Source: Bacteroidia bacterium (GTDB lineage: Bacteria; Bacteroidota; Bacteroidia; 2-12-FULL-35-15). Taken from it: a DNA stretch of 64,000 bases. Of this stretch, positions 37,534-49,739 are shown piece after piece; the first letter of the stretch is position 1, and the number at the start of each line of letters is the position of its first letter. Under the pieces are notes generated by a model. The model did not search any database and was not told where the DNA came from. It worked only from the letters and a program-made list of their open reading frames with translations. The stretch covers positions 62,001 to 126,000 of the forward strand of contig JAURXZ010000035.1 of assembly GCA_030654175.1 (NCBI GenBank), in the 5' to 3' direction. A program made the translations under genes and the position numbers.

Positions 37534-37678
37534 AAGTGACTTTAAAAATAAAATTATTGGATTAATTTGTAACAAGTGTTGGTATAACTTGAATAGGCGA
37601 ATCGAAAAAAGTTTAGTCGGTATTTAATTTTGGATAAAGTCCACTAAAAGCAACAAATCTCTTTTTAACGTAAAGGCT

Positions 37679-37785
37679 GCGTTAGGGATTGAGGCGCAAA
37701 TCCTTCCCTACCGCCTTTTAACGGCAGGGAAGATTGAAGCTGAAAGCCCGCCCCTTTTCCCTTTTCGGAAAAGGGGAACGCCCAA
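37679..37785 (+). repeat. Structured repeat, copy 1 (two hairpins)
   Basis: The element starts GCGTTAGGGATTG and ends GAACGCCCAA. Inside it are two hairpins: a CTTCCCT.../...AGGGAAG stem near 37703-37732 and a CCCCTTTTCC.../...GGAAAAGGGG stem near 37751-37776. A GATTGAAGC and AAAGCCCGCC core lies between them. A second copy in opposite orientation lies at 41827-41927. Conserved core and flanks with changed but complementary stems point to a structured RNA or palindromic mobile repeat. Confidence 0.75.
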
Positions 37786-41826: not shown

Positions 41827-41927
41827 TTGGGCGTTCCCCTTTCTTAAACAAGAAAGGGGCGGGCTTTCCGCTTCAATCTTCCCCCGCTAAAAAGCGGGGG
41901 AAGGATTTCCGCTGCAATCCCTAACGC
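41827..41927 (-). repeat. Structured repeat, copy 2 (inverted)
   Basis: Read on the minus strand it starts GCGTTAGGGATTG and ends GAACGCCCAA like copy 1 (37679-37785). Its hairpin stems differ: CTTCCCCCGC with GCGGGGGAAG, and CCCCTTTCTT with AAGAAAGGGG. The rest of the spacer 41616-42180 is AT-rich without a recognisable gene. Confidence 0.75.
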
Positions 41928-42180
41928 GGCATTTTCCTGAAAGAGAATTTGTCATTGTTTAGAGACTATAGCCAAAATTTACAATCGAACTCAGGTTTGT
42001 ATCATCAATAACAATTTTAATATTCAAGGCTCCCCACATATTGGGATAAATCGACAAACACTCACCACAGGCTCACTCAATATAACCGCGCACAGACTAT
42101 GGTGGAATTTTATGGGAAAATTACCTTGGCCAAAAATTCTGGCATATATTTTTATCAGGTTCAATTTTAAACCTAAAAAT

Positions 42181-44667: not shown

Positions 44668-44743
44668 ACTCACCTTTTCTCGATTCCGCTCGAAATGATC
44701 ATGTGCGGGGTCATTTCGAGCGGAATCGAGAAAGTGCGAGGGG
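44668..44743. repeat. CTCGA-type palindromic repeat, copy 2
   Basis: ACTCACCTTTTCTCGATTCC and AGCGGAATCGAGAAAGTGCG form a long inverted repeat with TCATTTCGAGCGGAA pairing to TTCCGCTCGAAATGA. The outer parts match copy 1 at 43862-43932 in the same order. Confidence 0.7.
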
Positions 44744-46164: not shown

Positions 46165-46977
46165 CTATTTGCTGGAAACAAGGCGGATGCCTATATAGTC
46201 ATAGTTGTAGACCGGGCTTTCGCAGTATCGGCAAGCACTCCGGCAGTTGAACGCAAAGTTGTACCAACTGCCGCCACGGAGTCCACGGGCCGGCCCCAAT
46301 GGAGCACCTTTAGGCTTAGTTTGCACCCCGCTTGAATTATCATCATACCAGTCGCTGCACCACTCCGACACATTGCCATGCATATCGAACAAACCATAAG
46401 CGTTTGCTGCAAAACTGCCAATGGGCATTGTTTTTCGCCTGTATTCAGCCTTCGCATTGTTGCCATTATAATTTGCCTGTGAAGTAGTTAGCTTGTTTCC
46501 TGTGCTAAATGGTGCAGTTGTTCCTGCACGGCACGCATATTCCCATTCAGCTTCGGTTGGTAAGCGGCAGCCCATCCATGTTGCAAAGGCTGTGGCATCG
46601 TCCCAGCTTACGTTTATTACAGGGCGTTCGCCTCGCCCCCAGCCTCCATCACTTGGTTTTTCCCTGCCAGTTGTAACGCAAAACAAATCATATTGCTCAA
46701 AGGTTACCTCGTATTTGCTCATCTTAAAAGCACTTAATGTTACTCGATGTTGGGTTTCATTATCGTCTCTATAAACTTCACTCGCAGGACTGCCCATTGT
46801 AAAGATGCCGGCAGGAATGCTTGCCCATGCTATGGTTGGTTTGGTGAAGTCAGGAATAACAGTAGGTGAATTGTTACTTATTGTTTGCTCAGTCGTTTCA
46901 GCGTTTTTATTTTCGCTTGAACCAAAAGAAGAAATTAATGTGGTCGTTAAAATAGCGATGGTTAATATATTTTTCAT
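46165..46977 (-). CDS. SUMF1/EgtB-type FGE-sulfatase domain protein
   Basis: The start at 46977 (MKNILTIAILTTTLISSFGS) gives a clear signal peptide. The 270-residue protein carries an FGE-sulfatase domain: WASIPAGIFTMGSPASEVYR, HRVTLSAFKMSKYEVTFEQYDLF, RPVINVSWDDATAFATWMG, RLPTEAEWEYACRAG, GLFDMHGNVSEWCSDWYDD, and GLRGGSWYNFAFNCRSACR at the end. Family members include formylglycine-generating enzymes and ergothioneine synthases, but many exported Bacteroidota members have no known catalytic role. The RxxCRY-type region has CRSACRYCE; the cysteine pair needed by true FGE cannot be confirmed. It is preceded by an attC-like inverted repeat (47003-47185) and may be a cassette gene. Confidence 0.88.
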   Translation of the reverse strand: MKNILTIAILTTTLISSFGSSENKNAETTEQTISNNSPTVIPDFTKPTIAWASIPAGIFTMGSPASEVYRDDNETQHRVTLSAFKMSKYEVTFEQYDLFCVTTGREKPSDGGWGRGERPVINVSWDDATAFATWMGCRLPTEAEWEYACRAGTTAPFSTGNKLTTSQANYNGNNAKAEYRRKTMPIGSFAANAYGLFDMHGNVSEWCSDWYDDNSSGVQTKPKGAPLGPARGLRGGSWYNFAFNCRSACRYCESPVYNYDYIGIRLVSSK

Positions 46978-47002
46978 TTTCTTTTTTTGTTCTGCGCTTG
47001 CA

Positions 47003-47185
47003 GCCAACGATTAGCTAAGTGATGTGGCCGATTTCGTAAACGAAATTATAAAATTACAAGTGGCAAAAACAAATAAAAAATAATTTTCTTCCGCTGTGAA
47101 ATGTTTTTGCCACGCCCTATTTTCATTGCGAACTAAAATGATGAAACTGGCTGTTACCGGCCATATAACTTAGGTGATGTTATGC
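47003..47185. repeat. attC-like long inverted repeat A
   Basis: The left end has GCCAACG (47003-47009) and TTAGCTAAGTGATGTGGCCG (47011-47030). The right end has CGGCCATATAACTTAGGTGA (47158-47177) and GTTATGC (47179-47185). The arms align as imperfect inverted repeats with CTAAGT and TGGCCG conserved. An inner perfect pair GTGGCAAAAACA (47060-47071) and TGTTTTTGCCAC (47102-47113) lies inside. The layout of paired outer boxes, paired inner boxes and variable centre resembles integron attC sites, though 183 bases is long for that. The rest of the 292-base gap has only a diverged copy of the tandem repeat (47226-47264). Confidence 0.5.
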
Positions 47186-47269
47186 GTATTTATCTCTTCT
47201 GTCCACCCCCAAAATTCAAATAATGGTCGTCACGTTTTTTTCTGCGCAATTGTCTACAAGTTAGATTTT

Positions 47270-47896
47270 TTATTTTATTTCTATTACTATTTCATTGCTT
47301 ACTATGTCTAACTTTGGCACTTTACTGAATAGCTTAAGAAGTTTACTGTATTCGATTTCCCTTTCTGGCACGGCTTCTCCTGTCTTCCGGTCAATCCAAT
47401 TTCTTACTTGCCCGGCATATGCATCTCCCATCCATTTTTTGAAATTTGTTTCATTGGTCGAGTAATAGAAGTTGATTTTATATTTACCTTTTTTTGCAAA
47501 ATTTCTCTTATCCTTCATTTTAAAGTCAGAATATACAGGTGTTTGGTTGCTGAATGGATCAAATGTCTCGCCCTTTTTAACTTCAACAAAGTCCGCGCTG
47601 TCAATGCCATCATAATTTCCGCATTCTCTTTCATAAGTAATAATTTTATAAGAGGTGTCCGCTATCTTTTCAATTTTAAAATAAGCAGGAGGAAATCTGA
47701 CTTTAAAAGCAGAATAATCAAGTGTCTTCACAAGTTGGATTGTGCTGTCCGTGTTATTTTTGATTTCGACTTTAATTATTGGCAATTCCCCTTTTTTATA
47801 AGTTGCTTTGTCTGATTTGATAAAACACACAACTCCTTGTCCATTAAGCAACACTGTTATAAAGAGTAAAGCTATAACCAAAGAAATACTTTTCAT
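47270..47896 (-). CDS. Secreted hypothetical protein
   Basis: The start at 47896 (MKSISLVIALLFITVLLNGQ) gives a clean signal peptide; a longer frame to 47947 runs into a tandem repeat and is unlikely. The 208-residue protein begins its mature part with VVCFIKSDKATYKKGELPIIKVEIKNNTD, which looks like an Ig-like beta-sandwich of the kind found in BsuPI-type or DUF4625-type domains. A lysine-rich remainder follows, with KGKYKINFYYSTNE and ending VSNEIVIEIK. I do not recognise a named family. It lies between repeat blocks and may be a cassette gene. Confidence 0.65.
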   Translation of the reverse strand: MKSISLVIALLFITVLLNGQGVVCFIKSDKATYKKGELPIIKVEIKNNTDSTIQLVKTLDYSAFKVRFPPAYFKIEKIADTSYKIITYERECGNYDGIDSADFVEVKKGETFDPFSNQTPVYSDFKMKDKRNFAKKGKYKINFYYSTNETNFKKWMGDAYAGQVRNWIDRKTGEAVPEREIEYSKLLKLFSKVPKLDIVSNEIVIEIK

Positions 47897-47916
47897 AATA
47901 AAATGGTGTATTAATT

Positions 47917-48060
47917 TCTGCGTAATTGTCCACAAGTCAGCAAACACAGGTCGTACAGTTTTGTATTTGTTTTTTTTCTGCGTAACGGTCTACAAGTCCG
48001 CAAACACAGGTCGTACCGTTTTGTATTTATTTTTTTTATGCGTAACGGTCTACAGGTCAG
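47917..48060. repeat. Tandem repeat, 60-base period, 2.4 copies
   Basis: Two full units (47941-48000 and 48001-48060) match at about 55 of 60 positions; both start CAAACACAGGTCGTAC and contain TGCGTAACGGTCTACA. A partial unit (TCTGCGTAATTGTCCACAAG) lies at 47917-47940, and a more diverged piece (TCTGCGCAATTGTCTACAAG) at 47241-47260. The block fills the space between two minus-strand genes. Confidence 0.85.
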
Positions 48061-48065
48061 CAATG

Positions 48066-48635
48066 CTATCTTATTTTGTAATACTTGTCTTTATATTTCA
48101 TTACTCCATGATGAAAGGTCTTTTTATTCGGTATTTTTATAATTAATTCTCCAATTGTCGATGTGGCACAAGCAAGAAAATTATACACTGTGTCATTGTT
48201 TTTAATTTCTATTTCGGTGTGCCTTTGTTCCGGATTATAAATATGTATAGTGTCTTTTGTTTCTAATAAAAATGGGTAATAATTCCAACATTTACCTGTA
48301 CTTTGGAACCAATGATTAATTTTTATTGTGTCATTTGTTAACGAAAAAAATATAGTGTCTCTATTCCACACCCATTTTTTTGTTGAATCATTTACCCAAT
48401 TTCCTTGATTTATTATTTGATAGTTTAATTTTGGATAATTTGCTAATACGCTATCGTAAGTTTTTGTTCCGACAATTATATTATTTACGTCATTTTCTTT
48501 GTCGAGAAGAGCTAATTGTGATGGTTTCTTTACATCAATGAAATTTTTGGTAGCAGCATTTTCTTTCAAGTTTGAATTCTGATTGCATGAAAAATTAAAA
48601 ATAAGTATTGTCAGTAAGTACAAAATCTTTCTCAT
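48066..48635 (-). CDS. Hypothetical lipoprotein
   Basis: The start at 48635 (MRKILYLLTILIFNFSC) gives a lipoprotein signal with the lipid cysteine at residue 17; the longer frame to 48812 crosses an inverted repeat and is unlikely. The 189-residue product has a mature part rich in Asn, Lys and Thr, with NWVNDSTKKWVWNRDTIFFS, KCWNYYPFLLETKDTIHIYN and TFHHGVMKYKDKYYKI. No domain is recognised. It lies between the attC-like repeat at 48696-48762 and the tandem repeat at 47917-48060. Confidence 0.65.
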   Translation of the reverse strand: MRKILYLLTILIFNFSCNQNSNLKENAATKNFIDVKKPSQLALLDKENDVNNIIVGTKTYDSVLANYPKLNYQIINQGNWVNDSTKKWVWNRDTIFFSLTNDTIKINHWFQSTGKCWNYYPFLLETKDTIHIYNPEQRHTEIEIKNNDTVYNFLACATSTIGELIIKIPNKKTFHHGVMKYKDKYYKIR

Positions 48636-48695
48636 AATAATTTTATAAAAATAGACGTGTCGATTTACTACTCTCTTTTTTTGTTTTATAATTAC

Positions 48696-48762
48696 GCATA
48701 ACGGCAAACTAAGCGCAGATTTTGCCTTTTGGCAAAATTTGAGTTTAGTTAATGTTATAAGC
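48696..48762. repeat. attC-like inverted repeat C
   Basis: The 67-base element begins GCATAACGGCAAACTAAG and ends GAGTTTAGTTAATGTTATAAGC (shown in part here as GTTTAGTTAATGTTATAAGC). Outer ATAAC pairs with GTTAT and inner AACTAA with TTAGTT, with unpaired bases between. The centre is a perfect hairpin ATTTTGCC-TTTT-GGCAAAAT (48719-48738). Length, box layout and GTTAT ends resemble integron attC sites. It lies upstream of the lipoprotein gene on the minus strand. Confidence 0.55.
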
Positions 48763-48892
48763 TGGGCAATTTTTATTTCGTTCGTTACATTTAGAATTAG
48801 TTTCTCACACACAGTTCGTCACTCTTTCCGATGAATTGATCCCAATTACATTCGTCTAAGATACTGAATTCCCAGTCCTTTTAAGCATTCTT

Positions 48893-48996
48893 ACTTTTTG
48901 TCTTGAAACAAAAAGTAACAAAAAATTCAAGAAAAGGCCATCGGCTCGCGCACAGGCCGACTCAGCCCCCGCAGCCTTTTCCGGCTCACGCGCTTT
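48893..48996 (+). repeat. Structured repeat family 2, copy 2
   Basis: ACTTTTTGTCTTGAAA faces CAAAAAGTAACAAAAAATTC, followed by GAAAAGGC (48931-48938), a loop with CGCACAGGCCGACTCAGC, and the complementary GCCTTTTC (48974-48981). Order of parts matches the copy at 39755-39860, with a changed but complementary stem. A 68-residue open frame on the other strand across it is not credible as a gene. Confidence 0.65.
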
Positions 48997-49113
48997 TCTG
49001 ATAAGATTTTTAGCAAATTGAAAATAAAATAGGAAATGTCCTTTTTTATTGGGAACTTTCAAAACTTAATTGAACGTCTTTAAATACAAAAATGTCTTTA
49101 ATGCCTTTCTCAC

Positions 49114-49439
49114 TTATGTTTTGAAAGGTATTCTATAAAAATTCCCCGTTTTTTTATTTTTCGTCTGCTTATTTGCATTGCCATGTAAATACTGCCTAAC
49201 TCTTGGATGAAATACCGTACTATTTGATTTAGCTCCGAAACGAATTACTGTGCCACTGAACTGAAAAGGCCTTTCTTTGCCACACTGGTAAAATTTAGCA
49301 GTCCATTTTTCTGGCTAAATACTAAATCTCAATACACACAGTATTATTAGCTCACACACTGAAATCTGATTACATACAGTTCCTAAAACAAAGTTCGTTT
49401 CCGATACGATTTTTCGCCTTTGCTTGCCTTGCTTATAAC
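49114..49439 (-). pseudogene. Possible broken ORF
   Basis: On the minus strand one frame reads PEKWTAKFYQCGKERPFQF, continues through RFGAKSNSTVFHPRVRQYLH to IPFKT and stops at 49114-49116 (66 codons from 49314). It has no ATG, GTG or TTG. In the same frame, just before an in-frame TAG at 49315-49317, an ATG-led stretch reads MRLWNCYKQGKQRRKIVSE. The composition looks protein-like, so a coding region interrupted by a stop is possible. Homology was not recognised. The remainder of the 1.1-kb gap (48636-49739) holds repeats C and family 2 copy 2 and the terminator at 49570-49604. Confidence 0.3.
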
Positions 49440-49569
49440 AATTCCATAAACGCATGTTTTGCAATTCTAAGCAATTGTAAATGCTTGTAATTATTTATTG
49501 TCGTTCCGAAGTATGTTTCCTCAAATATAAGCTATTCTAATCACGATATTGGTAATAAGTATAAAAACA

Positions 49570-49604
49570 AAAATGCCCTCCTGCAATAAGCAGAAGGGCA
49601 TTTT
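49570..49604 (-). terminator. Terminator of the metal-resistance operon
   Basis: AAAATGCCCT pairs with AGGGCATTTT, and CTGC/GCAG extends the stem around an AATAA loop. It lies about 135 bases after the last adaptor gene on the minus strand and is followed by a T-rich stretch. The symmetrical A and T runs would allow action in both directions. Confidence 0.85.
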
Positions 49605-49739
49605 AACATTTAGTAAATCAAAAATTAATCTACATTATCATGTAAAAAAGAATTGTTTGGTTTGATCAATTCGTCTGTCTATTGTTGCTGTTGGGCAAAG
49701 CAATGATTAACTTTGAAATATTCCACTAATTTTTCTTTC

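Follow-up and report, generated by a model that had tools for sequence, protein, structure and literature searches.

The window analyzed here, a stretch of 64 kb on contig C6, carries on its minus strand a few genes separated by repeats. The question raised by this locus is whether these repeats are the attC sites of an integron-like array and, if so, which recombinase acts on them. The original prediction proposed a possible cluster of gene cassettes without an integrase. The array itself stood up to analysis (end complementarity, covariation of the hairpins, and model matches with exact boundaries), and the system is not that of a canonical IntI. The window probably contains a short array of gene cassettes that lacks an integrase and belongs to an integron-like system, whose recombinase would not be of the IntI type.

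Organization of the array

Site A (47000-47185), site C (48696-48762), and a third GCTTATAAC (49431-49439) were all found where they had been predicted (Table 1). The ends of cassette 1, GTTATAAGC (49439-49431) and GCTTATAAC (48762-48754), are perfectly complementary, and those of cassette 2, GTTATGCGTA at the end of site C and TACGCATAAC at the start of site A, form a perfect 10-bp complement over a distance of 1.5 kb. Such complementarity is expected if each cassette was once closed into a circle. For cassette 3, no closing attC and no GCAGCCAAC partner were found downstream of the SUMF1 gene.

Table 1. Features of the array on contig C6 (window coordinates)
Feature	Position	Strand	Remarks
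attI-like leader upstream of cassette 1	49440-49640	minus	Terminator-like hairpin inside
Cassette 1	48754-49438	minus	Opens with GTTATAAGC at 49439; closes with site C
attC-like site C	48700-48756	minus	R boxes extend to 48696-48762; fold and model R2
Cassette 2	47179 to ~48701	minus	Opens with GTTATGCGTA; closes with TACGCATAAC at site A; two genes and 60-bp tandem repeats
Gene 3 (189 aa)	48066-48635	minus	No Pfam family over cut-off
60-bp tandem repeats in cassette 2	47915-48060	minus	Not attC-like
Gene 2 (209 aa)	47270-47899	minus	Only a weak Ig-like match (DUF5001, E = 0.012)
attC-like site A	47006-47181	minus	Confirmed at 47000-47185; belongs to a large repeat family
Cassette 3	46165-47007	minus	Opens with GTTGGCTGC; SUMF1/FGE-like gene at 46165-46977

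Cassette 1 is geneless, with no ORF of at least 80 aa in the ORF list. The gene of cassette 3 was confirmed as SUMF1 type (PF03781, E = 1.7e-55), and the best Pfam matches of the two other minus-strand genes (E = 0.012 and 0.034) were not above the family cut-offs. The predicted rule of one gene per repeat does not hold strictly, since genes 2 and 3 share cassette 2. Gene order in relatives, proposed as a check on the prediction, did not speak against it: blastn of 59 relatives returned no genome with all three genes together.

The leader of the window has no adjoining recombinase gene. Two other copies occur in the same genome, one at C44:102357-102527 (79% identical), which heads a different first cassette, and one at C5:1606-1754. 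Homology among the copies ends at |GTT.

Other repeats were observed at the locus. A dispersed repeat (~48891-49160) lies inside the geneless cassette 1; blastn detected copies in relatives, the repeat is found in many genomes of the class, and in one of them (G010) it adjoins an array-heading recombinase. The 60-bp tandem repeats of cassette 2, which contain GCGTAACGGTCTACAAGT, also occur at C19 (~177.0-177.3 kb) and at L044:5006-5158; the genome has only a handful of such repeats, each within or close to a cassette array. Elsewhere, the window contains two matches to the Flavo-1 RNA (RF01705), at 41853-41935 (minus strand) and 37670-37757 (plus strand), and an intergenic 30-nt inverted repeat (44669-44740; 90% complementary), which is terminator-like or a mobile repeat.

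Structure and covariation of the sites

Site C folded better than its own shuffles, with z scores of -4.0 on the plus strand and -2.2 on the minus strand, and in its L stem an (A/T).C and an A.C mismatch lie at a distance of 3 bp. Copies of site A were found by blastn (3.4-kb query) on C19 (three times), on C44, and in relatives, and, searched with a covariance model of the site, this genome yielded 10 copies and one relative 33. The aligned copies share a conserved stretch that starts at AAC and ends at GTT, with no relatedness beyond either end. Their inner stem contains 60 double-changed cells versus 17.8 in shuffles, with a covariation score of 0.189 versus 0.062 for shuffled and at most 0.048 for slid alignments; kinship among the copies can inflate covariation, and the slid control retains that kinship. 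The sites used for model A4 were selected for having a stem, which inflates pairing, and those used for model A3 were not so selected. Covariation shows, at the level of sequence, that the hairpin matters.

For neighboring A-type sites less than 3.2 kb apart, the right end was complementary to the next left end over at least 10 bp in 7 of 9 pairs, compared with 1 of 28 for the two ends of the same site and an all-against-all background of 2.3%. Unmatched cassette ends, when followed, led to other hairpin families within the same arrays.

A search with an attC-type covariance model, suggested along with the prediction, was performed with a model (R2) trained outside the window on 38 aligned sites from recombinase-linked arrays, including four from C32 of this genome. 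This alignment contains 202 double-changed cells versus 63.6, with a score of 0.621 versus 0.149 (at most 0.087 when slid), pairing being inflated by the selection of the 38 sites for having a stem. R2 matched site A with 40.9 bits (E = 2.8e-7; 46999-47188) and, with filters off, site C with 29.3 bits (E = 5.9e-6; 48693-48763), with exact ends in both cases; in a filtered search of the 64-kb window, site A was the sole match below an E value of 0.3. The prediction of attC-like repeats was upheld for sites A and C. The 60-bp tandem repeats were considered as short attC sites and showed no such fold (z about 0).

At pair 26-115, flanked by covarying pairs, 35 of the 38 sites have an A.C mismatch. 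The window's own sites A and C share this mismatch at the corresponding pair, which is unpaired in 27 of 28 copies of site A. The sites carry the inverse core AAC ... GTT with an imperfect inner stem. Searches of viral contigs revealed none of these sites. In genome G015, ~25 weak matches to the site A model, mostly 0.5 to 3 kb apart, were observed on contigs C23, C80, and C84, which are probably parts of one large array split by assembly.

The recombinase heading related arrays

The sub-threshold match that scores best against the IntI model in this genome lies on C32 and is a tyrosine recombinase of 359 aa. This recombinase points away from an array that begins 150 bp from its start codon and consists of chained cassettes, each closed by a ~124-nt hairpin, with a cargo that includes a SIR2/pAgo-like defense protein. 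In G008, a relative of the C32 recombinase is followed by an array in the same direction, starting ~100 bp past the stop codon, and similar arrays adjoin the recombinase in six additional genomes (G002, G010, G025, G026, G033, and G034). Because loose cassette scans gave ~5 chance matches per 20 kb of strand, only strict chained matches with controls were counted. In a blind test, 11 of the 20 loci examined in other families had chained cassettes near the recombinase versus 0 of 20 control regions, taken mostly from the same genomes as the test loci; at one of the 11 loci (L168), the chain lies ~7 kb from the recombinase and not beside it. The longest ORF was on the cassette strand in 40 of 43 chained cassettes, at a median distance of 58 nt after the cassette start and 21 nt before attC.

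Arrays start ~95 to 110 bp after the recombinase stop codon or ~150 to 170 bp upstream of the gene, and the junction with the first cassette has a conserved sequence (ATATAArnAA|GTT or GCGTATAATAAAGA|GTT). Recombinase-linked arrays therefore have an attI next to the recombinase. A recombinase-attI unit is common to G033 (L130), from this genus, and G620 (L171), from another family, with 98.8% identity over 6.4 kb; identity ends within ~11 bp of attI|GTT, and the cassettes beyond differ. The same pattern was found in two Chryseobacterium plasmids, with identical attI sequences just before |GTT. Cassette ends, hairpins, the recombinase-attI-array layout, and a replacement of cassettes at |GTT between two genomes can all be read from the sequences.

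Side observations were made at several of these loci. The 550-aa members of the recombinase family, which have three HARP-like repeats, had no adjacent array and were left out as array heads. An ORF of 273 to 274 aa is located just downstream of the divergent-type recombinase (L003:501-1325 in G000 and L171:10647-11468 in G620); the G000 copy had no Pfam match, and the ORF is possibly an accessory gene. The Chryseobacterium cassette array contains a group II intron (L223:15744-17060).

The array-heading recombinases keep the catalytic residues. They have 58 to 59 residues in the stretch where IntI has 100 and Xer recombinases 60 to 66, indicating that the I2 region is absent. Among solved structures, those closest to them are IntI4 and archaeal XerA; IntI4 (2a3v) was the first match, and in comparison to it the recombinase is ~41 residues shorter (I2 region). 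In a quick tree with long branches, IntI formed a separate clade. The N-terminal 68 residues have a confident predicted fold (pLDDT 93), whose best structural match is the HARP domain of SMARCAL1 (4o66; probability 0.96, E = 0.03, a moderate match). Pfam matches of this domain are weak (HARP [PF07443] in 3 of 25 members, best E = 6.5e-4; DUF5710 in 13 of 25), and a sequence search of the PDB returned no homologue, HARP or other; within the PDB, the likeness to HARP showed up in the fold comparison alone.

Of 395 genomes sampled from the class, 197 encode a member of the recombinase family, which also occurs outside the class; R2 sites were detected in 266 of the sampled class genomes. On many Acinetobacter plasmids (including L225:6001-8305 of NZ_CP041297, and L226), the "xerD"/TnpF recombinase upstream of tet(X3) is a 5′-truncated member of the family (46% over residues 104 to 370). 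tet(X3) starts 190 bp after the truncated recombinase and is followed by the apparent left half of an attC-type site (R2, 14.5 bits, E = 0.25; 7 of 10 matches between the cassette ends), an observation that is suggestive at most.

The array could instead be an ordinary CALIN, its cassettes and attC sites belonging to a canonical IntI integron that has lost its integrase or is served by one in other cells. Such elements are common (PMC9024848, PMC9668308), and the layout and end complementarity match those of integrons. The prediction that the window contains no integrase was correct, and an integrase elsewhere in the genome, proposed as a further check, was not found in its canonical form: TIGR02249 gave nothing over the cut-off in this genome or in any of the 36 genomes of the genus, and thus no IntI with the additional I2 domain. 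With the same search, 105 of the 395 phylum genomes had IntI, which provides a working positive control and shows that the enzyme is frequent elsewhere in the phylum, but among the IntI-positive genomes listed only one belongs to the class of the window. In many families, arrays of the same kind have the other recombinase at their head, separated by a conserved distance, and the neighborhoods of 20 true IntI genes gave only two weak matches to R2 (best E = 0.0048). We therefore regard an ordinary CALIN as unlikely. Against the favored reading, some array-bearing genomes of the genus (G017, G022, and G029), two of them incomplete, gave no clear member of the recombinase family beyond XerC/D-like matches; most genomes appear to be fragmented MAGs.

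It is still less likely, and in our opinion improbable, that the neighboring recombinase is incidental and that the cassettes are moved by host XerC/XerD or some other enzyme. This explanation would account for R2 sites in 85 of 198 family-negative genomes, and XerC/D-like proteins are present, but the association at the genome level is strong, with R2 sites in 181 of 197 recombinase-positive genomes (odds ratio of 15, P = 6e-27, computed with shared ancestry left in). The recombinase also keeps a constant place at the array start in both orientations, and a single recombinase-attI unit is common to different families with different cassettes. One could also take the repeats for MITE-, REP-, or terminator-like hairpins dispersed among unrelated genes, which would fit their high copy number and palindromic structure but is scarcely credible, since complementarity ties each site to the end of the previous site and not to its own other end, genes are consistently oriented, and chains were absent from the 20 control regions.

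Proposed mechanism and relation to known integrons

According to our best reading of the sequences, the array of the window would be a satellite that lacks its own integrase, belongs to an integron variant whose recombinase has no I2, and is served in trans, as the recombinase is on C32 and the window on C6. Each cassette would extend from its G|TT...GC start to the closing attC-like hairpin, and its complementary ends would pair in the excised circle. The tyrosine recombinase, presumably a member of the non-IntI family found at the head of other arrays in this genome (C32) and in the class, would cleave at G|TT, and circles would be inserted at the attI-like leader (here, 49440-49640) or at attC sites. 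Recombination would involve single strands, and we infer that the N-terminal HARP/DUF5710-like domain takes the role of I2 in recognizing the folded site.

The I2 helix defines integron integrases; it is said to be needed for cassette capture and to be absent from all other proteins (PMC7790495). Integrons are reported to be rare in Bacteroidetes (PMC9024848). An I2-less family that heads cassette arrays and is itself present in about half of the sampled Bacteroidia genomes would challenge both views, would explain why IntI-keyed searches miss these arrays, and would add a second natural solution to recombining folded DNA. On balance, we favor a second kind of integron widespread in Bacteroidia, in which recognition of folded sites would have evolved separately from IntI, with a HARP/DUF5710-like N-terminal domain and no I2 helix, and with a conserved A.C mismatch replacing the extrahelical bases. 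No description of such a system was found in the literature searched, which comprised sources other than subscription papers and preprints, and this may be a large, apparently undescribed gene-shuffling system widespread in Bacteroidia.

Like chromosomal (sedentary) IntI integrons, including the Vibrio cholerae superintegron (VchIntIA, i.e., IntI4, PDB 2a3v), the arrays consist of cassettes of one or few genes in one orientation, with attC-like hairpins forming large homogeneous families, a G|TTRRRY cleavage point, complementary cassette ends, and an attI beside a tyrosine recombinase. Unlike in these integrons, the recombinase lacks the I2 insert, belongs to a separate clade, and has an extra N-terminal HARP/DUF5710-like domain, whereas the sites have a conserved A.C mismatch, often with a second one 3 bp outward, and end complementarity reaching ~10 bp. 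The window resembles a CALIN, a software category defined by at least two attC sites without a nearby intI, in having two attC-like sites, as judged by models built in this study, and no integrase; it differs in that its sites belong to the I2-less system of the class. Finally, the recombinase is similar to XerA-like or integron-like simple tyrosine recombinases (NF040815; a subgroup in PMC8138268) in its core-binding and catalytic domains and kept catalytic residues, but known XerA works as a Xer recombinase, outside cassette arrays.
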